Source: Shouchella clausii
GTDB taxonomy: Bacteria; Bacillota; Bacilli; Bacillales; Bacillaceae_D
NCBI RefSeq assembly: GCF_002250115.1
Contig: NZ_CP019985.1
Location: 2,480,001 to 2,544,000, forward strand
Reading direction: 5' to 3'
DNA length: 64,000 bases
Position numbers and translations under genes: made by a program. The notes beneath the pieces were generated by a model. The model worked only from the letters and a program-made list of their open reading frames with translations. It was not told where the DNA came from and did no database searches. Shown in pieces: positions 41,915 through 52,234 of the stretch (positions are counted from its first letter, which is position 1; each line of letters opens with the position of its first letter).

Positions 41915-42881
41915 ATGACAACGATCAATTGGGCAATACTTGGCCCAGGAGCCATCGCTAGCGATTTTGCCCAAGCACTAAACAACATCAACGGAACGAT
42001 TTATGCAGTCGGTTCAAGGTCGATTGAAAAAGCGCAGGCGTTTGCAAGCAAATTTGGTGTCAAGCATGCGTTTGGAAGCTATGACTCCATGCTTCACGAT
42101 GAAAACATCGACGCCGTTTATATTGCAACGCCCCATTCCAACCACTATGAATACATTAAAAAAAGTTTACAAAGTGGAAAACATGTTTTATGCGAAAAGG
42201 CCATCACGGTAAACGGCCAACAGCTTGAAGAATTAATGAGCCTCGCAAAAGAAAAACAACTTGTGCTAATGGAAGCAATGACCCTTTTTCACATGCCGCT
42301 CTATGCCAAGTTGCAACAGGTGATTCGCTCAAATACGTTAGGGCCAGTCAAAATGATCAATGTCACATTTGGCAGTTTAAAGGAAGCGAACCCGCAAAAT
42401 CGTTTTTTCAATAAAGAACTTGCCGGCGGGGCGATTTTAGACATTGGCACCTATGCGTTATCGTTTGCGCGCTTTTTTTTAGAAAGCCAGCCACATGAAG
42501 TGTTGACGACGGTCAAGCCGTTTGAAACAGGCGTTGATGAACAGTCGGGAATTGTCCTTAAAAACAAACAAGAACAGTTGGCAACAATTGCACTAGCAAT
42601 GCGCTCGAAAATGCCGAAGCGAGGCATTGTCGCCTGTGAGGGGGGGCTACATAACCGTCGATGACTTCCCACGGGCCCAATCAGCGCTGCTCACTTATCC
42701 TGATGGCTCAACCGAGGAAATCACAGCAGGCCAGACAGAACATGCCCTCCAATACGAAATCCAAGCGATGGAAGCAGCAATAGCCGGCCAAGGAGACACA
42801 CATATAGCGCTCTCCCGCGATGTAATGGAGCTAATGGATACCGTTCGCCGCCAATGGGGCATCACGTATCCATTTGAGTAA
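41915..42881 (+). pseudogene. Gfo/Idh/MocA oxidoreductase, frameshifted at a G-run
   Basis: NAD(P)-dependent sugar or diol dehydrogenase family. The first frame (from ATG 41915, after GGAGGAGATAG) has the Rossmann start WAILGPGAIASDFAQAL, YIATPHSNHYEYIKKSL and the conserved CEKAITVN (EKP-like), then AGGAILDIGTYALSF. It breaks after VACEGG and would stop at 42664. The family continues in another frame from about 42647 (YITVDDFPRAQSALLTYPDG) to TAA at 42881. Seven G at 42640-42646 instead of six explain the shift. Joined, the product is about 322 residues, a normal length. It could be a real mutation, slippage, or a base-calling error in the homopolymer. Confidence 0.85.
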
Positions 42882-42956: not shown

Positions 42957-43136
42957 ATGGCAAACGGAACAACCGACAAAATGAAAAGCGCAGCAAACAA
43001 AGCAAAAGGAGCAACCAAAGAAGCTGCCGGAAAAGCGGCAGACAATAAAAAAATGCAAGCAGACGGCAAGAAAGACAAACTAAAAGGCAAAGCCCAAGAG
43101 GTGGAGGGCGATGTTAAGGAGAGGGTGAAGGATTAA
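42957..43136 (+). CDS. csbD: CsbD family stress protein
   Basis: A 59-residue very hydrophilic protein, rich in Lys, Ala, Gly and Glu. The pattern ANKAKGATKEAAGKAADN and KDKLKGKAQEVEGDVKERVKD matches CsbD-type general-stress proteins. Molecular function is unknown; expression in B. subtilis depends on sigma-B. ATG at 42957 follows AAAAGGAGGCG at 7 nt. It is a single-gene unit whose terminator is shared with the convergent signal-peptide gene at 43165. Confidence 0.9.
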   Translation: MANGTTDKMKSAANKAKGATKEAAGKAADNKKMQADGKKDKLKGKAQEVEGDVKERVKD

Positions 43137-43137
43137 A

Positions 43138-43166
43138 AAAACGGCCCGATATCGGGTCGTTTTTTT
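43138..43166. terminator. Bidirectional terminator shared by csbD and the AimP-like gene
   Basis: ACGGCCCGA / TCGGGTCGT stem around TA, A-run on one side and T-run on the other. It overlaps the stop codon of the peptide gene (43165-43167). Confidence 0.88.
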
Positions 43167-43299
43167 AATCTGAAATGACGATACCTGATCCCCCATGTGG
43201 CTGCATGTCCTCTACACTTTCGTACGTGAATAGAGAATAATTGAAAACAAAACTGAAAAGAAACATTACTAAACTAACCTGCACGAATTTCTTTTTCAA
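43165..43299 (-). CDS. AimP/Phr-like secreted signal-peptide precursor (44 aa)
   Basis: Too short for routine gene calling, but well supported. A TTG at 43299 overlaps the receptor stop (ATTGA), with AAAGGGG 9 nt upstream. The 44-residue product starts MKKKFVQVSL, has a hydrophobic core (VMFLFSFVFN, residues 11-20) and a polar C-terminal part ending HGGSGIVISD. That is the architecture of Phr/AimP pre-peptides: Sec export, then processing to a C-terminal signal that is re-imported by Opp and bound by the TPR receptor. AimP of SPbeta is 43 residues and ends in GA; this one does not, so its mature peptide would be of a different class. Mature ends are unknown. Confidence 0.75.
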   Translation of the reverse strand: MKKKFVQVSLVMFLFSFVFNYSLFTYESVEDMQPHGGSGIVISD

Positions 43300-44423
43300 T
43301 TTAAAATGCCCCTTTCATTTGTAAGAACATATTTTTCTTCAAATTTTTCAAACATCCACTTTGTAAAAACAAAATCGCCATCCATCATGGCAAAATGAAG
43401 CGCTTCTTTACATAAATGATAGTTATCAGTTGCCATTGACCGATAAAATAAATTAAACTTATTTTTTCCATTTTGCTGCTCAGCCATATCCAGTAATGCT
43501 ATTGCTTTATCAGGCTGTTTGCGAATAATATATTGGTGGGCTTGTTCTTCAATATCCATGTCTTCATCCAAAGGAAAATACTTTTGGTGCACATTGTGAA
43601 GAAAAATCAGGTCATTGTTTTTTATTACATTCGCTTGTGAAAGGACATTCATCTTTTTGTAAAGATTGTAGGAAAAAATCAAGTTCTGTTTTGATTTTTG
43701 GAAATTGTTGAAAATATAAATCTGACCAAGTATTTGATGAGCAGAAGCTAAAATGTATTCTTGAGTTGCGGGGTTTACAATGGTGCTTGAGATCAGTTGT
43801 TCTGCCTTTTTAACGTTATGTTCAAATAGAAAGTAACTATATGCAAGATTGTTAGCCACTCTTGCAGCTAATACAGACTTTAAATAACCTGGCCGGAGTG
43901 TTTTTAAAAATTCAGCTGTTTCGAGTGTAATTGCATGGGCCATTTTATATTGTTTTAATCGATAATAAGCAGAATAGCGCAAGATTTTAAGTTTTGTTAT
44001 TAAAAGATCGGATTTAATGTAAGGTAATAACTTTTCAGTTTTAGCAAGAACTTCTTTAAAATCAATATTAATGTTATATCTTAAAGTCGAAACAAGTTCA
44101 TACACTTGGCACCATTCAGTGAGCAAATCGTCGTGTTGATGTTTATCGAGTAAGGCTAATAATAAATCATAATTTCTGTAAGAGGAAGCAAACTCAAAAG
44201 CACTTTGCACACTTTCGAGCTTTGTAGCATGATAGCAATACATATTCATGATATCAAGAGAATGATCTTCATCCACATACTTCACGATCGTCAATATATC
44301 CTCAAACTCTAGCGAAGGATACTTTTTGGTCAATTGTACAACCGAATCGTATGTAAGCGTTTGTCCACGTTTCATGCCTTCTTTTGCCAGTAACGCCTTG
44401 TTTTCTTCACTGATCCAAGCCAA
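43296..44423 (-). CDS. AimR-like RRNPP peptide receptor/regulator
   Basis: A 375-residue protein resembling AimR, the arbitrium receptor of SPbeta-group phages (386 residues). The N-terminal part should hold the DNA-binding helix-turn-helix (GMKRGQTLTYDSVVQLTKKYP). The rest is helical TPR-like, with AimR-like stretches SVQSAFEFASSYRNYDLLLALLD (about 70-92), ILASAHQILGQIYIFNNFQKSKQNL and DIEEQAHQYIIRKQPDKAIALLDMAEQQ (about 300-327, like SPbeta's DLQEQAHCFINFNENSKAKEVLDKLD). TTG at 44423 is preferred: GGAGGTGA lies 5 nt upstream. The gene is followed directly by the peptide gene and faces away from the LXG toxin operon. No phage genes are near. A Rap/NprR relative is the alternative. Confidence 0.75.
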   Translation of the reverse strand: MAWISEENKALLAKEGMKRGQTLTYDSVVQLTKKYPSLEFEDILTIVKYVDEDHSLDIMNMYCYHATKLESVQSAFEFASSYRNYDLLLALLDKHQHDDLLTEWCQVYELVSTLRYNINIDFKEVLAKTEKLLPYIKSDLLITKLKILRYSAYYRLKQYKMAHAITLETAEFLKTLRPGYLKSVLAARVANNLAYSYFLFEHNVKKAEQLISSTIVNPATQEYILASAHQILGQIYIFNNFQKSKQNLIFSYNLYKKMNVLSQANVIKNNDLIFLHNVHQKYFPLDEDMDIEEQAHQYIIRKQPDKAIALLDMAEQQNGKNKFNLFYRSMATDNYHLCKEALHFAMMDGDFVFTKWMFEKFEEKYVLTNERGILN

Positions 44424-44451
44424 GCTGGTCACCTCCACGTTATCCGGTGTA

Positions 44452-44479
44452 CTAGCACTATAACATAAAAAAGTGCTAG
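44452..44479 (-). promoter_or_regulatory. Inverted repeat around the -10 box of the AimR-like gene
   Basis: CTAGCACT (44452-44459) and AGTGCTAG (44472-44479) flank 12 nt. In minus reading the arms enclose an extended -10-like TGTTATAGT, about 30 nt before the start codon. It is a candidate site for self-regulation by the AimR-like protein. Confidence 0.45.
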
Positions 44480-44917
44480 CAATAGCGGGTTTGACATTGG
44501 GAAAATTCGTTTATTGCAGTTGGGGATTTTCCATTTTTGAAGAATGAAAACATGAAAAATCCTTAAAATGGCAGTTAGGTAAATGTCATTCCTATTAACT
44601 AATAGTATATTTCCCAATAAAAGGGTAAGTTTGTCTGGGCGTTTATTTACTTTAAGTTAAAATCTGCGTACTGTTATTCAAACTGCCAAAGCTGTTGGTC
44701 TCAAAGGCGTTTCGGGGAACGTTTGATCAAAGAGAAACCGTCATTGTTAAAGTTTACGGTTGACCTCGCCTGTCTTAGTCCGAGGCTTATTTTTGTCGCA
44801 GCATACTTTCGACTTTATCACTTGTAATTACCTGGTTTTTTTAGGCTTGAAATAGTTGAACATGTAAAAGGATTTTTTTATGCTTGATATATATGGAAAA
44901 AGAAGGGGTATATACGA
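44480..44917. other. Divergent intergenic region between receptor gene and toxin operon
   Basis: Holds promoters for both directions. At 44661-44708 the plus frame reads LRTVIQTAKAVGLKG, like the end of an IS66-type transposase, without a gene around it. CCTCG / CGAGG with a following CTTATTTTT (about 44764-44793) is a weak terminator-like hairpin. AAGGGGT at 9 nt before ATG 44918 is the toxin operon's ribosome binding site. Confidence 0.4.
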
Positions 44918-45599: not shown

Positions 45600-47126
45600 A
45601 TGAAAAAGTATGTTGCCTCTGAATTTTTCTCTGCCCTCGATAAGATCGACTCGGACATGAATCAGTACACAGAGACATTGAGCAACGTTCATTCTGCTAT
45701 TCAAGGCGTCGTGAACTTGGGAGACAATCTCACAGGGCAAGGCGGAGAAGCACTCAAAAACTTTTATGCAAACAACCATGTACCGCTGCTTTCCTACTGG
45801 ACGATGGCCTGCCAACAAGTCAAAATAGCTACGGCAAAAATGCGGATGAACGCGCTAAGCTTTGAGAGCAGCGATGCAGTGATTGATGAAAGCTTTATTG
45901 AAGGAGAAGTCATTCCTCAATTAGAAACAAACCAGCGAAGAATCGAAGAACATGAGCACAAAATTAATCATATCATTGCTAGCGTCTCTGACATTGTATC
46001 TTTGCCAAGACTTGACACAAGCGCCATACAGACAGGGATACACGAGGCGAAGCAGCATGCAATGAATACGGTTGAAAAGCTCTATGCTTTCGACCATACA
46101 CAATCAGCAGCGGTCGATCAACTGATTTCGTTGATGGCGCCAATTAGCTCGTTTGTTGCCGGCTTAAATGGAGCGATTGAATCAGGTGTTAGCATTACGG
46201 CACTTGCCGGCTACATTGCTTCCCAAGATGTGCCGCCAGAAATAAAAGCGATGCATCCGATGCTAAATGGCACGTATAATGTATTGACTCCGTATCAGAA
46301 CTTTCAAGACCAAGCCGTACATACACAGAATTTCTTACTTTCGCCAAACCCGTTTGGATTTATTTATTTTAGCAATCCGTTTATCTTAAATGCGGCTAAG
46401 CGACTTTATTTGGCTGGTGGCCATATCGATGTGGTCCATCATTATTCGCCAGATCATCAGATTGCAGGAACAACTATTGATGCGAACGGAAACGAGATTG
46501 CATCTTCCGCTTACACCGTCGACGCTGAAATTATTAATGATTGGGGCGATGGCCATATTGAGGTTCGTGGTGGAAAAGTGGACTACGATGCACTAGAGGA
46601 ACAAGGAATTATTCCTAACAGATTTGTTACTAACTCGGGGCATGCCATACACTATACGGATATTGATGGGGAGCTTGTTATATTTATGGATGATCCTGAT
46701 GTTCATTATTATACGAATGGCTCAGTTCATACGGGATTTAATAGGCTATCAACTTATATTGCTGGTGCTGGAGGCGTATATCTGGGAGGATTATTAATGC
46801 ATTCTTGGGCAACAAGAGGAATATCAAAAGGCACAGTCCTTATGGAAGAAGTAAAGCAGCCTACAATAATAGACTCTGCTAAAAAAGTTGCATTGGGAAC
46901 AGGAGGATTGACTAGTGGTTTACCTATAATAACAACACCTATTCCAGGTATTGGTACGGAAGAACGTATATTATGGATAAGTATTGATGAAGGGGAAACA
47001 TGGGATACCAGGATCTATGTGGAAGTTGATTCAAATGGAAAAGCCCATATGACAGACTACGAAGACCGAAAAGCAGATGGTGTTTTTGGATGGCTTTTTG
47101 AGCGTTTTGTTCGGCCACATTTATAA
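45600..47126 (+). CDS. LXG-domain polymorphic toxin, putative type VII secretion substrate
   Basis: A 508-residue protein. Residues 1-200 form the helical LXG domain (YVASEFFSALDKIDSDMNQY; LGDNLTGQGGEALKNFYANNHVPLL with the Leu-x-Gly-like turn). A middle part (about 205-390) includes a VHHYSPDHQIAG..DANGNEIASSAYTVDAEIINDWGDGHIEVRGGKVDY segment of unknown fold. The C-terminal 110 residues contain glycine-rich hydrophobic stretches (YIAGAGGVYLGGLLMH, ALGTGGLTSGLPIITTPIPGIG) and end DGVFGWLFERFVRPHL. No nuclease, ADP-ribosylation or other catalytic motif is seen. With membrane-protein immunities downstream, a membrane-acting toxin is likely (inference). ATG at 45600 follows AAAGGAG. Confidence 0.85.
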   Translation: MKKYVASEFFSALDKIDSDMNQYTETLSNVHSAIQGVVNLGDNLTGQGGEALKNFYANNHVPLLSYWTMACQQVKIATAKMRMNALSFESSDAVIDESFIEGEVIPQLETNQRRIEEHEHKINHIIASVSDIVSLPRLDTSAIQTGIHEAKQHAMNTVEKLYAFDHTQSAAVDQLISLMAPISSFVAGLNGAIESGVSITALAGYIASQDVPPEIKAMHPMLNGTYNVLTPYQNFQDQAVHTQNFLLSPNPFGFIYFSNPFILNAAKRLYLAGGHIDVVHHYSPDHQIAGTTIDANGNEIASSAYTVDAEIINDWGDGHIEVRGGKVDYDALEEQGIIPNRFVTNSGHAIHYTDIDGELVIFMDDPDVHYYTNGSVHTGFNRLSTYIAGAGGVYLGGLLMHSWATRGISKGTVLMEEVKQPTIIDSAKKVALGTGGLTSGLPIITTPIPGIGTEERILWISIDEGETWDTRIYVEVDSNGKAHMTDYEDRKADGVFGWLFERFVRPHL

Positions 47127-47148: not shown

Positions 47149-47490
47149 ATGAATGAGAAAACAGCTAAATTAACACCAAAGAATAAACTTATTGCATTTG
47201 TACTACTCCCCTTATACCAAATCGTATTATTTTTAATAACCAACATAATTGTCATGTATTTAAAAGGAACTTGGTACTTTGATATATGGGGATTTTTAGG
47301 ATTTTTGATAATAGTACTTGCTGTTTGTTATATTCTCAATCCAGTTTTCGATGCATTTGATTTTAATAATATCTATATTAGAAATGGAGAGGCGTCATTA
47401 ATTGAGAAAATTAAAAGGTTCAAGGTGGTTTTTATAATATTTACGGTTGCTCCAATATTAGTGGGGCTACTTGCGTTGAATACAAACTAA
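47149..47490 (+). CDS. Putative immunity protein 1, membrane (subfamily A)
   Basis: A 113-residue protein with three predicted membrane segments (FVLLPLYQIVLFLITNIIVMYL, IWGFLGFLIIVLAVCYIL, VVFIIFTVAPILVGLLAL). The core KNKLIAFVLLPLYQ ... LNPVFDAFDFNNIYIRNGEASLIEKIKRFK is shared with the genes at 48925 and 49556. It follows the toxin stop by 22 bp, the position of a cognate immunity gene. GGGGGTC lies upstream at a longer spacing. The gene's end joins abruptly onto a remnant of another immunity gene at 47491. Confidence 0.75.
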   Translation: MNEKTAKLTPKNKLIAFVLLPLYQIVLFLITNIIVMYLKGTWYFDIWGFLGFLIIVLAVCYILNPVFDAFDFNNIYIRNGEASLIEKIKRFKVVFIIFTVAPILVGLLALNTN

Positions 47491-47655
47491 CACTTGTAGG
47501 ATACGCGGCAGTCTATTGGTATTACAGTTTGGCATTGATTATGCATCATGGATAAATATTCTTTTCCGTCTCGGAACCGATAGGCTACTCGATATTTCGA
47601 GACGGAATTTGGTTCAAACGTCTATAAACCTATTAGCTTTTATTTTAATATCGAA
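47488..47655 (+). repeat. Repeated gene-end/terminator block, copy A
   Basis: Starts with the last ~20 codons of a subfamily-B immunity gene (readable as GYAAVYWYYSLALIMHHG then stop), continues with TTCCGTCTCG..CGAGACGGAA terminator hairpin (47564-47607) and ends in CTATTAGCTTTTATTTTAAT. Copies B and C are at 48605 and 52391. The overlapping long frame 47516-47740 is a by-product, not a gene. Confidence 0.85.
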
Positions 47656-47674
47656 ATCTTTATATATGCCTATA

Positions 47675-47740
47675 AAAACCTATTCTTCTGTCTACGTCCC
47701 AATCGTTGACTTTTTTACCGATGATAATGATAAAAAGTAG
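47675..47740 (+). pseudogene. Orphan toxin-tail remnant
   Basis: Encodes KTYSSVYVPIVDFFTDDNDKK then stop, 9 nt before the next immunity gene. A related tail (VVDYFSSQDDKSV) lies at about 48288-48326 before the third immunity gene. Each looks like the last residues of a lost toxin C-terminal domain, kept beside its immunity gene. Confidence 0.5.
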
Positions 47741-47749
47741 GTGAGTACG

Positions 47750-48088
47750 ATGGAGGATGGACAAAAAAATCAAGAAATGACTATATCAAACAAAATCCAG
47801 GCCTTTATTCTAATGCCTGGATATATGATGATCCTCTCGTTTGTTTTATATTACTTATTAACGTTTAGTTTTATTAAGGCAGAGGGGATTATTGCAATCA
47901 TTTCGTTTCCTTTGGTTTTTTGTTGGATATACGTTCCGCTTTTTAGAGAATATCAATTTAAGGAGATGTATTACAAAGATGGCGATATGCCCATAAAAGT
48001 TAAAATTCAAAAACACAAGCAAGCAATCACTGAATATAGCATTATAGCTGTATTTACAACTGGTTTCGCATTGTTATGTCACATATAG
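47750..48088 (+). CDS. Putative immunity protein 2, membrane (subfamily B)
   Basis: A 112-residue protein with three predicted membrane segments. The pattern NKIQAFILMPGYMMILSFVLYYLLTFSF ... PLVFCWIYVPLFREYQFKEMYYKDGDMPIKVKIQKHKQAITEY matches the gene at 48338 closely and subfamily A more distantly (same AFxLxP and EYxFKEMYY/DFNNIYI positions). ATG at 47750 is chosen over GTG 47741 because GTAGGTGAG lies just upstream. It has its own terminator. Probably protects against a toxin variant no longer encoded in full here. Confidence 0.68.
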   Translation: MEDGQKNQEMTISNKIQAFILMPGYMMILSFVLYYLLTFSFIKAEGIIAIISFPLVFCWIYVPLFREYQFKEMYYKDGDMPIKVKIQKHKQAITEYSIIAVFTTGFALLCHI

Positions 48089-48107
48089 CCGTTTGTAACT
48101 AAAAGAA

Positions 48108-48135
48108 GTAGGGCGATTTTGCCCTACACTTTTTT
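48108..48135 (+). terminator. Rho-independent terminator
   Basis: GTAGGGC / GCCCTAC stem with a 6-nt loop, then ACTTTTTT, 19 nt after immunity gene 2. Confidence 0.9.
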
Positions 48136-48337
48136 GTTGAACAAAAGATCGTTCCTTCTAATTTGTGAATTTGATGCGATATTGATTCCTATAATATAAT
48201 TGGTTTAAGTATTCTCTTAATCATTTCAGAAATGTATGTATTCGCATAATATCATGGTCTATAAACGAAAAGTTATTTCCCATCTTCAACAAAGTTGTAG
48301 ATTATTTCAGTTCCCAAGATGACAAGTCGGTGATTAG

Positions 48338-48676
48338 ATGGAACAACATGAGGAAAGAAAGATGGACTTACGTAACAAATTTCAAGCTTTTGTGTTGATG
48401 CCTGGCATTATTATGTTAGTAGCGTGGATGCTCTATTTCATTTTCACTTTAGGGAAAATGAATTATCAAGGGGTGATTCCAGTGATTGCAGCCCCTTTGA
48501 TTCTTTGCTGGGTATGTAATCCCTTCTTTGAAATAAACGAATATAAGGAAATGTTTTATGAGGATGCAGAAATGCCTCTAAAAGACAAAATAATGAAATA
48601 CAGACCAACACTAGCAGGATACGCGGCGATCACTATTGGCATTGCAGTTTGGGCATTGATTATGCATCACGGATAA
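48338..48676 (+). CDS. Putative immunity protein 3, membrane (subfamily B)
   Basis: A 112-residue protein with three membrane segments. LRNKFQAFVLMPGIIMLVAWMLYFIFTLG ... PLILCWVCNPFFEINEYKEMFYEDAEMPLKDKIMKYRPTLAGYAAITIGIAVWALIMHHG parallels immunity 2 and explains the origin of the remnant ends in copies A and C. ATG at 48338 follows GGTGATTAG. A decayed toxin tail lies directly upstream. The stop is part of a 16-bp tandem duplication (ATATGCATCACGGATA). Confidence 0.68.
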   Translation: MEQHEERKMDLRNKFQAFVLMPGIIMLVAWMLYFIFTLGKMNYQGVIPVIAAPLILCWVCNPFFEINEYKEMFYEDAEMPLKDKIMKYRPTLAGYAAITIGIAVWALIMHHG

Positions 48677-48790
48677 TATGCATCACGGATAAATTTTTCC
48701 GTCTCGAAACTAAGAGATTACTCTATATTTCGAGACGGAATTTGTTTTAAACATTAACTATTAACCATAATAGCTTTTATTTAATTATAG
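48605..48790 (+). repeat. Repeated gene-end/terminator block, copy B
   Basis: Contains the intact end of immunity gene 3, the TTCCGTCTCG / CGAGACGGAA terminator (48697-48740, followed by TTTGTTTT) and the ATAGCTTTTATTT tail. It is the best-preserved copy and probably the source form. Confidence 0.87.
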
Positions 48791-48815
48791 AAGCCTGTAA
48801 GGTTTTAAAACCAGT

Positions 48816-48928
48816 GACACTAGAATCTATGTACAAGTTGATAAAAATCAACAATGACAGATTACGAAGATAGATCACCAGAAGGACCCATAGGATGGCT
48901 TTATGAACAATGGATTGGGGATTCATGA
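48816..48928 (+). pseudogene. Decayed toxin C-terminal tail
   Basis: Reads DTRIYVQVDKNQQ, shifts frame, then MTDYEDRSPEGPIGWLYEQWIGDS and stops at 48928. The intact toxin has DTRIYVEVDSNGKAHMTDYEDRKADGVFGWLFERFVRPHL at its end. The stop overlaps the start of immunity gene 4 (ATGA), the coupling expected of a toxin-immunity pair. Confidence 0.8.
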
Positions 48929-49269
48929 AAAACATAAATGGAAAAGAAATCAAATTAAGCCGAAAAAACAAGTTTGTTGCTTTTGTTCTATTGCCGCTTT
49001 ATATGATCATCGCCTTTCTAATAGGCTATACAGTGGGCCTTGAGATAGCTAGCAAATGGTATGATTCAATGGCAATCATCACGTTCATAATAGCGGTACT
49101 TGTGCTTTGTATTATATTGAACCCAATTTTCAATGCGTTCGACTTCTATGACATATATGTTGTGAATGGGGAATTAAGCCTAAAGGAAAAAATGAAGAAG
49201 TTTAAAGCAGCTTTCATAACATTCACTCTTATTTCTGTTGTTGCAGGCTTATGGGGAGGGGTATTTTAA
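48925..49269 (+). CDS. Putative immunity protein 4, membrane (subfamily A)
   Basis: A 114-residue protein with three membrane segments. SRKNKFVAFVLLPLYMIIAFLIGYTVGLEI ... LNPIFNAFDFYDIYVVNGELSLKEKMKKFKAAFITFTLISVVAGL matches immunity 1 and 5. ATG at 48925 overlaps the stop of the decayed toxin tail; a G-rich site (TTGGGGATT) precedes it. A terminator follows at 49299. Confidence 0.7.
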   Translation: MKNINGKEIKLSRKNKFVAFVLLPLYMIIAFLIGYTVGLEIASKWYDSMAIITFIIAVLVLCIILNPIFNAFDFYDIYVVNGELSLKEKMKKFKAAFITFTLISVVAGLWGGVF

Positions 49270-49910: not shown

Positions 49911-51470
49911 TTGGAGGAGAAGTTAGTGTTATATATTAAGATTCAGGAATTACATAAGAGAAAGTTTAAAGTAGCGCAAATCGCTAAGGAGCTTAAAATC
50001 TCAAGACCGACTGTCTATAAGTACTTAGAAATGACATTCGATGAGGCAAAGGCGTATACTGAACAGCCCTTGGGAAAGAAGAAAAAACTAGATCACTATA
50101 AGGACTGGATACTGGCCTGGCTCGAAGAGTATCCCCACCTAAGTAGTGCTCAGATCCATGATTGGCTTTTAGAAAGATACCCCGACCTAGTGGTCGGCGG
50201 AAGTACTGTAAGAACATATGTGAGGGGGGTGCGAGAAGTTTATCAGATTGAGAAAAAGGGGATTGTCCGGCAATACGAAGCAGTTCCTGAACAACCAATG
50301 GGTAAACAACTCCAGGTAGACTGGGGAGAAACAAAACAGAAAACAGTGAACAACAAGGAAATCAAACTGTACTTTATTGCCTTTGTACTCGTTCACTCGC
50401 GACAAAAATATATGGAATGGCAAGCACGTCCATTCACCACAAGAGATGCGATTCGTTGTCACGAACATGCCTTCCAGTTCTATGGAGGACGAACCGAAGA
50501 AATTGTCTATGATCAGGATCACTTAATCTCAGTAAGTGAAAATGCAGGTCAACTACTTTTAACAGCTGAGTTTCAAAGCTATGTAAACGAGCGTAAATTC
50601 AACGTTCACCTTTGCCGAAGAGCGGATCCAGAATCTAAAGGGATGATTGAAAATGTAGTGAAATACATAAAAGGCAACTTCGCTGACAGTCGTGTGTTTA
50701 GAGATATAGAAGATTGGAATGAACGGGCAAGGCAATGGCTCAAGCGTACGGGAAACCACCAGGTTCACCAGACAACGAAAAAAAGACCAGCAGAAGTGTT
50801 TCTCCTCGAAAAGCAACACTTACAGCCAGTCTCTTCGTTACTTTCATATGAAAGTACCCATAACCAAAGTATAACAAGAAGTGTTAGTAAGGACAATACG
50901 ATCCGGTACAAGTCAAACCGTTACTCTGTCCCACTGGGGACTTATCAAAATAGGAGTGAGAATCTTGTGTGGATTGAAATAAGGGAAGAAGATCACAACG
51001 CCCTGATCATCCGCAAAGAAGCAAATGGTGAAGTGATTGCCGAGCATAGGATCAGCTCTGAAAAGGGAAAGCTGATTCAAAACCGTCACCATACTCGTGA
51101 TCGCTCCAAAGGTGTGGAAGAGTTTAAACAACGTCTCCTCTCTCACTTTAAAGATCAGGTTCAGGCAGCTGCCTATTTAGATGAGATTAGCCAAAGATAC
51201 CCGAGGTATCGGAGAGATCAGTTTACAATTATTCATAAGGTGAGCCAACAATACCCGGCTATAATTGATACTGTTTTGGCCAAGTGCACGACAGAAAAGC
51301 TTTACAATGCGAATGACTTTCGCGATATCGCTCATCACCTTGATGCTTTACGAGATGAGCCGATTGAAGAAGCACAATCTTTTTACACGAGTCCGCCAAA
51401 CCATTCTCATCTCAAAGCCTCTACCCGTTCTCTAAATGCCTATACTAGCATTTTAGGAGGTAGAACATGA
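49911..51470 (+). CDS. istA: IS21-family transposase IstA
   Basis: A 519-residue DDE transposase. An N-terminal helix-turn-helix (FKVAQIAKELKISRPTVYKYLEM, about 19-41) binds the ends. The integrase core has Asp137 in QVDWGETKQK, a second Asp in EIVYDQDHLI (about 200) and the Glu in ESKGMIENVVKYIKGNF (about 245). The C-terminal basic half is typical of IstA. A TTG start at 49911 with GGGGGTTAGG upstream is used. The stop overlaps the istB start (ATGA). Confidence 0.93.
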   Translation: MEEKLVLYIKIQELHKRKFKVAQIAKELKISRPTVYKYLEMTFDEAKAYTEQPLGKKKKLDHYKDWILAWLEEYPHLSSAQIHDWLLERYPDLVVGGSTVRTYVRGVREVYQIEKKGIVRQYEAVPEQPMGKQLQVDWGETKQKTVNNKEIKLYFIAFVLVHSRQKYMEWQARPFTTRDAIRCHEHAFQFYGGRTEEIVYDQDHLISVSENAGQLLLTAEFQSYVNERKFNVHLCRRADPESKGMIENVVKYIKGNFADSRVFRDIEDWNERARQWLKRTGNHQVHQTTKKRPAEVFLLEKQHLQPVSSLLSYESTHNQSITRSVSKDNTIRYKSNRYSVPLGTYQNRSENLVWIEIREEDHNALIIRKEANGEVIAEHRISSEKGKLIQNRHHTRDRSKGVEEFKQRLLSHFKDQVQAAAYLDEISQRYPRYRRDQFTIIHKVSQQYPAIIDTVLAKCTTEKLYNANDFRDIAHHLDALRDEPIEEAQSFYTSPPNHSHLKASTRSLNAYTSILGGRT

Positions 51471-52234
51471 TGAACAAAACCGTACATGAACTACAAGATC
51501 ACTTTCGTCAGCTACGCCTAGCAGAGACTGCGGAGGAGCTGCCACAGCTTCTTCGCGAAGCTGAAAAAGCATCATGGACCTACTTGGAATTTTTAGAGTC
51601 TCTCACTCGATATGAATTAGCCAAACGCGAAGAGAAAAGCCTTGAGAAAAGAATGAAATGGGCACGCTTCCCTTTCGTGAAGTCATTAGACGAGTTTGAG
51701 CTGAAAGGACAAAACGTTCTGACGGCTCGTCAGCTTTCTCAACTCCGAGAATTAAGCTGGCTGGAGCAACACTATAATCTTATCCTTTTAGGGCCTCCTG
51801 GCATCGGTAAAACGTATATCGCAATTGGACTTGGACTTGAGGCTGTTTACAGAGGGTTTAATGTTTATTTCGCTACAATGGGTGAACTGGTGCAGCTTCT
51901 AAAATCAGAAGAATACCTGAACAAATCTAAAGTTCAGCTTAAGAGAATTAGAAATGCCGACTTAGTGATTATTGATGATTTAATGTATATGGCCATGGAC
52001 CAGAGAGAAGCAAACCTATTCTTTCATTTAATTAACCATTTATACGAACGAAGTTCGATTATCCTGACATCAAATAAGAGTCCAGATGAATGGGGCAATT
52101 TAATCGGAGACCAAGGCATCACCACTGCGATTTTAGATCGCTTACTTCATCGTGTGGAAGTGATCCATGGTAGCGAAGAAGAGAGAAGTCACAGGATGAA
52201 AAATCGGAAGAGCATTTTTTCAGCAGATGTGTAA
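51467..52234 (+). CDS. istB: IS21-family helper ATPase IstB
   Basis: A 255-residue AAA+ ATPase (DnaC-like) that assembles on target DNA and stimulates IstA. Walker A is GPPGIGKTYIAIGLG (about 108-122) and Walker B LVIIDDLMYMAM (about 165-176); the N-terminal LRLAETAEELPQLLREAEKASWTYLEFL stretch is the IstB lead. Starts at ATG 51467 overlapping istA. Full length, no frameshift. Confidence 0.93.
   Translation: MMNKTVHELQDHFRQLRLAETAEELPQLLREAEKASWTYLEFLESLTRYELAKREEKSLEKRMKWARFPFVKSLDEFELKGQNVLTARQLSQLRELSWLEQHYNLILLGPPGIGKTYIAIGLGLEAVYRGFNVYFATMGELVQLLKSEEYLNKSKVQLKRIRNADLVIIDDLMYMAMDQREANLFFHLINHLYERSSIILTSNKSPDEWGNLIGDQGITTAILDRLLHRVEVIHGSEEERSHRMKNRKSIFSADV

Follow-up and report, generated by a model that had tools for sequence, protein, structure and literature searches.

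An AimR-family receptor and a putative propeptide gene at a chromosomal site of Shouchella clausii

The chromosome of Shouchella clausii carries a gene pair of the AimR-AimP kind: a receptor with the AimR profile and predicted fold, and a small gene directly 3' of it. The pair occupies a chromosomal site, it lies in a block that diverges between related species, and the receptor lacks one predicted N-terminal helix. We consider it rather probable that this is a signalling pair owned by the bacterium at a constant site of the Shouchella chromosome, that its receptor-plus-peptide block has been exchanged, and that its output would be its own operon and a neighbouring LXG cassette. All positions refer to the window, i.e. 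the whole 64,000-nucleotide stretch analysed here, which is part of the single 4.52-Mb contig of the focal genome (G000).

The gene pair and the predicted fold of its receptor

The receptor gene (43296..44423, minus strand) encodes an AimR-family protein of 375 amino acids that belongs to a class without a predicted helix-turn-helix (HTH). Its 375-codon frame in the ORF list runs from 44423 to 43296 and begins at a TTG located five bases 3' of the Shine-Dalgarno (SD) site GGAGGTGA; the longest listed reading has 380 codons and begins at an in-frame GTG at 44438. An AimP-like propeptide gene of 44 codons follows on the same strand (43299..43165). Its TTG start overlaps the receptor stop (ATTGA) and is preceded by AAAGGGG. 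The encoded propeptide has a Lys-rich start, then a hydrophobic core and a tail, MQPHGGSGIVISD, with the C-terminus HGGSGIVISD. These features of the small gene had been described in the initial annotation and were all found as stated. No Pfam or NCBIfam model exceeded its cut-off in a profile search with the small frame, and two weak PHROG matches (E 0.09 and 0.26) are both to families of unknown function.

The strong hairpin at 43125..43175 (−21.1 kcal/mol, z −6.9) has T runs on both strands and likely serves as terminator for both the aimP-like gene and the convergent CsbD-like gene (PF05532; 42957..43136, plus strand), which marks the conserved chromosomal flank. Since the hairpin lies directly 3' and csbD beyond it, there is no aimX behind the aimP-like gene. 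Near the aimR start, the palindrome CTAGCACT-12-AGTGCTAG (44452..44479), also present in the related genome G009, is possibly an operator or promoter element. The Gfo/Idh-type gene at 41915-42881 consists of two overlapping frames in the focal genome and of one 321-codon frame in G009, G004 and G011.

The receptor matches the NF038310 profile (lysogeny_AimR) with 138.5 bits (cut-off 70, E 2.7e-40) and phrog_1728 with an E of 4.6e-36. No Pfam model reaches its cut-off on this protein, including PF22871 for AimR, which is without a match on the G009 orthologue too and matches eight of the ten relatives scanned. An AlphaFold2 model was calculated from an alignment of 7 sequences (mean pLDDT 87.8, pTM 0.83). 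In a Foldseek search of the PDB its top 16 matches were AimR chains (E 1.2e-8 to 1.0e-6), followed after a gap by unrelated TPR proteins at 1.8e-3 and RapH at 4.9e-3; RapI also ranks far below. Rap membership was rejected on this basis (E 1e-8 for AimR versus 5e-3 for RapH), and a weak PDB sequence match to NadD was taken as chance. The predicted fold thus agrees with the profile search in placing the protein with AimR and not with an unrelated TPR family, as the initial annotation had proposed for this TPR regulator, and we regard membership in the AimR fold family as well supported by the model.

In the AlphaFold2 model the helices 6-14, 25-34 and 40-50 precede the TPR part. A phage AimR of the HTH type from a viral contig, modelled as a control with a 7-sequence alignment as well, has N-terminal helices at 8-24, 29-36, 40-48 and 57-67. 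Hence, the predicted focal receptor has one N-terminal helix fewer before the TPR part. The HTH segment is likewise missing from it in an alignment of 53 receptors. Judged from the model, the focal receptor seems to be without the usual DNA-binding part.

In the pocket of SPbeta AimR, Glu300 holds the amino end of the peptide and Arg228 its carboxyl end, according to the accessible part of PMC6458997. The corresponding positions (SPbeta numbering) were located by alignment to Katmira AimR, at an identity of only about 20%. In this low-identity alignment all 38 HTH-less and all 13 HTH-type receptors (12 from Shouchella, one of G021) have the Glu300 equivalent, and 37 of 38 and 12 of 13, respectively, have that of Phe276. 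By the same alignment the focal protein keeps both residues, while the equivalents of Asn202, Asn206, Arg228 and Thr236 differ and Arg228 is replaced by Glu. This combination of residues fits a groove that may still take a peptide, but not an RGA peptide. The exchanged Arg228 position, with the low identity borne in mind, and the HGGSGIVISD tail both agree with the earlier suggestion of a signal that does not end in GA.

A chromosomal site and a divergent block

The sole portal and tape-measure matches of the focal genome lie at 3.21 Mb, about 690 kb from the focal pair, and no match to any of three phage markers was found in G009, G011 and G002. None of ten tested focal neighbours matched a phage structural PHROG. 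The PHROG matches among these neighbours were to UDP-glucose dehydrogenase, to GtrB-like and other glycosyltransferases and to transposases, and those of the LXG protein to two families of unknown function. The non-phage locus claimed in the initial annotation is borne out by these searches. Pattern searches for close relatives found none of the focal type in viral contigs (IMG/VR) or phages and, for the 171-kb paralogue, none of its type in viral contigs; the plasmid search for focal-type relatives gave four weak matches of 24-26% identity. HTH-type AimR relatives of Shouchella are present in IMG/VR (L126-L129 and L133, with L132 from a related genus).

With the csbD or the Gfo/Idh gene as landmark of the focal site, the pair is found there in G009 and G002; in G002 the orthologous pair lies beside the same Gfo/Idh gene. 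At this site G004 and G011 have an open frame of 140 codons, which is a receptor remnant, and no peptide gene. Over 330 bases, the remnant of G011 and the focal allele share 81% identity. Because only the remnant is kept in these two genomes, the focal system is dispensable.

The focal block was compared in 60-nt bins, with one genome per species. Upstream of the receptor, the bins of the focal genome and G009 are 93-100% identical. Codons 1-54 of the receptor are identical, and the first mismatch within the gene is at nucleotide 164. An edge bin of 85% is followed by 23-72% per bin from 180 to 1320, and from 1320 on the bins are back at 97-100%. The divergent block (43104..44260, minus strand, approximate ends) therefore comprises the TPR part and the propeptide gene. 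Counterparts of the small frame do exist in relatives, with position and architecture conserved rather than sequence, and the frame diverges together with the TPR part.

A similar block was found at the 171-kb locus, with a boundary at about nucleotide 240 and the alleles distributed as G000 and G004 versus G009 and G011. Within each side this block is 78-100% identical, and its downstream flank about 97-100% in fully covered bins. Farther than about 180 bases upstream, identity is low as well, at 29-70% per bin. The matching 5' part thus amounts to only some 400 bases, and long matching DNA on either side is a feature of the focal block alone. A patchwork of identity is seen in the G006/G010 pair (idx 7/8). 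Judging by these alignments, the divergent block would be the pattern expected of cognate receptor-signal alleles.

The remnants in G004 and G011 would also accord with a relic of a decayed arbitrium prophage that has no present function, and AimR genes are mostly located in mobile elements (87% of hits in the accessible part of PMC9765709). Against such a relic, the receptor and peptide frames are open in G000, G009 and G002, and the same site is used in several species. The ten neighbours free of phage structural genes and the matching flanks around the divergent block argue in the same direction. Furthermore, silent codon changes exceed amino-acid changes in seven of nine related propeptide pairs at loci other than the focal one, although the counts are small, three of the pairs come from one locus and one lies within one genome. 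A functionless relic is thus highly improbable.

Receptors, propeptide genes and an upstream motif across genera

NF038310 matches above the cut-off are present in 13 of 13 Shouchella genomes, with one to 16 matches per genome. The 16 matches of G007 (15 above the cut-off; among the loci are L076, L081, L083, L090-L093, L096-L098, L103 and L109) are found in a genome of about 2.6 Mb, and many of them have their own peptide gene. In the alignment of 53 receptors, 50 of which are from Shouchella, an XRE-like HTH segment is present in 12 of the 50 and absent in 38. Eight of the HTH-less receptors had a late called start, and their full open frames hold no HTH segment either. Pfam support for the HTH is weak, as one of four scanned HTH-type proteins passes an HTH cut-off.

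In a quick, unrooted tree calculated from the TPR part alone (118 rows, 316 columns, without bootstrap), all 38 HTH-less receptors of Shouchella fall into a single clade (SH-aLRT 97). Next to it are 11 of the 12 HTH-type ones (99), and a separate clade (100) takes in 48 of the 57 HTH-less rows from other genera. At least six changes between HTH and no HTH are needed on this tree, and the simplest reading of the sequences would be that the HTH was lost more than once. Outside Shouchella, where the HTH class was set by the model start and not by structure and at most four candidates were scored per genome, 11 of 49 HTH-type hits lie within 40 kb of a portal gene versus two of 70 HTH-less hits (p 0.0016; a further 10 of 80 HTH-less hits are in genomes not searched for portals). 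HTH loss as a mark of chromosomal copies everywhere was rejected, and it is a tendency only. Three HTH-less receptors of G007 are situated 15-25 kb from a portal gene; hence, loss of the HTH does not equal a chromosomal location. In other Bacillales (L134-L184), 80 of the 129 hits above the cut-off outside Shouchella match the model only from position 22 or farther on, and some of these late-starting hits have DPG-type propeptides, which are sometimes repeated.

Three AimR-family proteins of G007 possess a C-terminal LuxR-type HTH (PF00196, 1.4e-8 to 1.5e-14). They are located at L083:8360-9772 (plus strand), L093:9070-10518 (minus strand) and L097:5511-6887 (plus strand), and none of them has a small peptide gene by the fixed rule described below. 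The one in L083 is just upstream of another AimR that does have a peptide gene. These fusions are a hint that HTH-less AimRs may work with DNA-binding partners of the LuxR type.

Propeptide genes were identified by a rule demanding a same-strand start between -60 and +100 of the receptor stop, an SD site, a basic start, a hydrophobic core and 30-85 codons. Such a gene is found behind 35 of 50 AimR genes of Shouchella, a set that includes HTH-type and prophage copies, versus 30 of 625 other genes (Fisher p 8e-29, which is too optimistic because orthologues were not collapsed). With GG, GP or PG in the tail as an additional demand, the numbers are 29 of 50 and two of 625. The controls were genes of 150 codons or more from the same loci; four truncated receptors and three outgroup loci had been dropped beforehand. 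Outside Shouchella, 27 of the 65 receptors fetched are followed by a rule-positive gene, 22 of them with the tail motif. Among the 15 Shouchella receptors that have no peptide by the strict rule, idx 2, 16, 38, 39 and 45 have a candidate in which one criterion is missing.

Inspected by eye, the tails have a core of the xPxGG or GPxxP kind, e.g. MQPHGGSGIV in the focal propeptide and HQPLGGVGG in G009. The same core is seen in IQPQGGGTN, IEPFGSGHP, VPFGGPPV, AGPTNPP and GPTQPG, and KPGQLL and KPEQT deviate from it. Several propeptides contain repeated tails (GPNQPIIE twice plus GPTQPIIN; GPTNPPVD twice), and RRNPPA propeptides with internal repeats have been described (accessible part of PMC9765709). 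Two tandem propeptide genes with similar but not identical tails, FGNPPVNVGS and FGGPPVHVGT, follow one receptor in L070 (G006 C6).

The focal genome carries three AimR-family genes. Conceivably, the focal receptor is an eavesdropper that hears phage peptides or those of the other two AimR-family genes, and its signal is not encoded by the 44-codon frame. In the accessible part of PMC9765709, a propeptide candidate accompanies just 11% of the chromosomal AimR genes outside prophages. The focal receptor, however, has a peptide frame with an SD site directly 3', which diverges together with its TPR part, and small genes are far more frequent behind Shouchella receptors than behind the controls. 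Eavesdropping is therefore an improbable explanation.

The motif ATTGGGAAA occurs at the focal locus as an inverted pair, with one arm at 44496..44504 (plus strand) and the second at 44610..44618 (minus strand). Within the 250 bp upstream of the gene, 24 of the 50 Shouchella aimR-like genes have the pattern TTGGGAAA (1.2 expected), and both architectures are represented. Of 15 non-redundant motif-bearing loci, 14 have one site located 75-115 bases 5' of the start, facing either way. In other genera it accompanies eight of 65 receptors (1.3 expected), and upstream of the 15 G007 receptors there is none. We have considered TTGGGAAA as a putative AimR operator, although HTH-bearing and HTH-less receptors have it in common and G007 is without it. 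A wide TTGGGAAA regulon in the focal genome was rejected as unsupported, since the strict 12-mer has 10 sites versus nine for a control pattern. Three of the strict sites are upstream of the three aimR-like genes, and four of the seven others are inside called frames.

Possible output and relation to known systems

A cassette related to LXG proteins is encoded divergently from the receptor. It begins with a YwqH-like LXG partner (PF16888; 44918..45313, plus strand) and a DUF5344 LXG partner (PF17279; 45316..45582, plus strand). The next gene (45600..47126, plus strand) is the LXG protein according to the cassette order, and it is followed by an array of small membrane proteins (47149..49269, plus strand). 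Four of the latter, of 112-119 amino acids, were tested and gave no Pfam match above the cut-off; perhaps the array consists of immunity genes. An IS21-type transposase and IstB pair (49911-52234) adjoins the array.

Eight of 54 AimR hits have an LXG hit at a distance of less than 10 kb (1.3 expected), and all eight are of the HTH-less class. Collapsed into 35 orthology groups of our own drawing, five of the 35 are near LXG by this measure (1.1 expected, P 0.006) and the other 30 are not. One of the five LXG-near groups, G007 C6, belongs to a prophage-like region, with a portal gene about 21 kb away. A further AimR pair of G007 has such an LXG cassette behind it, separated by one gene, and a third pair is about 5.4 kb from a YukC hit. 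In B. subtilis, transcripts of the ywq LXG operon change with RapP/ComA status (accessible part of PMC12935306). Control of the LXG cassette by the receptor is plausible from this gene arrangement. Since the orthologous pair of G002 is accompanied by neither an LXG nor a YukC hit in that genome, an LXG output is not obligatory, and we regard the link between AimR and LXG as suggestive.

It is possible, if rather unlikely, that the pair is a functional signalling pair with an output unrelated to LXG. The HTH-less receptor would then bind a response regulator or another host protein in the manner of Rap, and the toxin cassette would be a passenger in a variable site. The G002 pair, the missing predicted N-terminal helix and the G007 proteins with a LuxR-type HTH speak for this explanation. 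On the other hand, the AimR-LXG neighbourhood recurs, and both sides share a divergent promoter region at 44424-44917 of the focal locus.

For the bacteria-owned pair that we favour, we infer the following course, from export of the peptide to the output. The propeptide of the small gene would be exported and then trimmed. The mature peptide, derived from the GG-containing tail, would re-enter the cell and bind the TPR groove of the receptor encoded by the preceding gene. The receptor-plus-peptide block would be swapped between lineages as a unit by recombination, with promoter, N-terminal part and flanks unchanged, and we propose that consequently each lineage hears its own signal. The receptor most likely binds a partner protein, Rap-like, or acts jointly with another protein at the divergent promoters, because one predicted helix of the DNA-binding domain is missing, though the lineage sits beside HTH-bearing AimRs of the phage type. 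The likeliest output would be its own operon plus the divergent LXG cassette.

Since the receptor seems to be without its DNA-binding part and adjoins a toxin cassette, bacteria may have taken over a communication system of the viral type. A more far-reaching scenario, which we find doubtful as a whole, is that Shouchella domesticated a phage arbitrium receptor once and lost the HTH, converging on the architecture of Rap. The receptor would then have expanded, to 15 above-cut-off matches in one 2.6-Mb genome, into a pherotype-switching quorum system with cassettes exchanged by recombination, steering type VII (LXG) warfare between kin groups.

If the favoured interpretation is true, bacteria run a communication system of the viral type for themselves, and the question of how phages and their hosts exchange signalling genes becomes testable in a cultivable genus. 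The focal protein would be a further RRNPPA receptor without a DNA-binding domain, besides Rap and subfamily 17 (accessible part of PMC12700828), and natural receptor-signal allele pairs would be at hand for working out specificity.

AimR-like systems of the chromosome have been published before (PMC12700828; PMC9765709, both in their accessible parts). A limited search of the open-licence literature did not find a lost HTH, exchanged alleles or a link to LXG described for such systems. Because S. clausii was for some years classified in Alkalihalobacillus, the focal system may belong to a group that has been described. This group, 'subfamily 21' of the RRNPPA tree, comprises chromosomal systems of Alkalihalobacilli that branch within phage AimRs (PMC12700828). 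Like the focal system they are chromosomal and of the AimR type; the accessible text is silent on their architecture, allele exchange, neighbours and mechanism. For AimR genes located in the chromosome but not in a prophage, the accessible part of PMC9765709 uses the name 'eavesdroppers', whereas in Shouchella a propeptide gene lies directly 3' of most receptors (the 35 of 50 above, HTH-type and prophage copies included).

Compared with Rap-Phr, the focal predicted fold is far nearer to AimR than to Rap. In Rap-Phr systems an HTH-less TPR receptor is combined with an exported peptide encoded downstream. The focal pair resembles them in its HTH-less TPR receptor and downstream peptide gene, and RapP/ComA status affects an LXG operon, that of ywq (accessible part of PMC12935306).

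With AimR-AimP of the SPbeta group and other Bacillus phages, the focal pair shares the receptor profile, the predicted fold and a small propeptide gene directly 3'. The AimR proteins of Katmira and SPbeta are conserved on the N-terminal side and diverged on the TPR side (accessible part of PMC9232636), as are the focal alleles. In contrast to the phage systems, the focal pair is chromosomal, has one predicted N-terminal helix fewer and adjoins a divergent LXG cassette. A terminator and a convergent csbD take the place of aimX and an AimR operator 3' of aimP, and the tail has a GG core instead of an RGA/GA C-terminus. Of the arbitrium-like reading in the initial annotation, the AimR family and the propeptide gene directly 3' are supported, and membership in arbitrium as a system is not; with one predicted N-terminal helix fewer and no aimX, the focal system is not arbitrium in its output.
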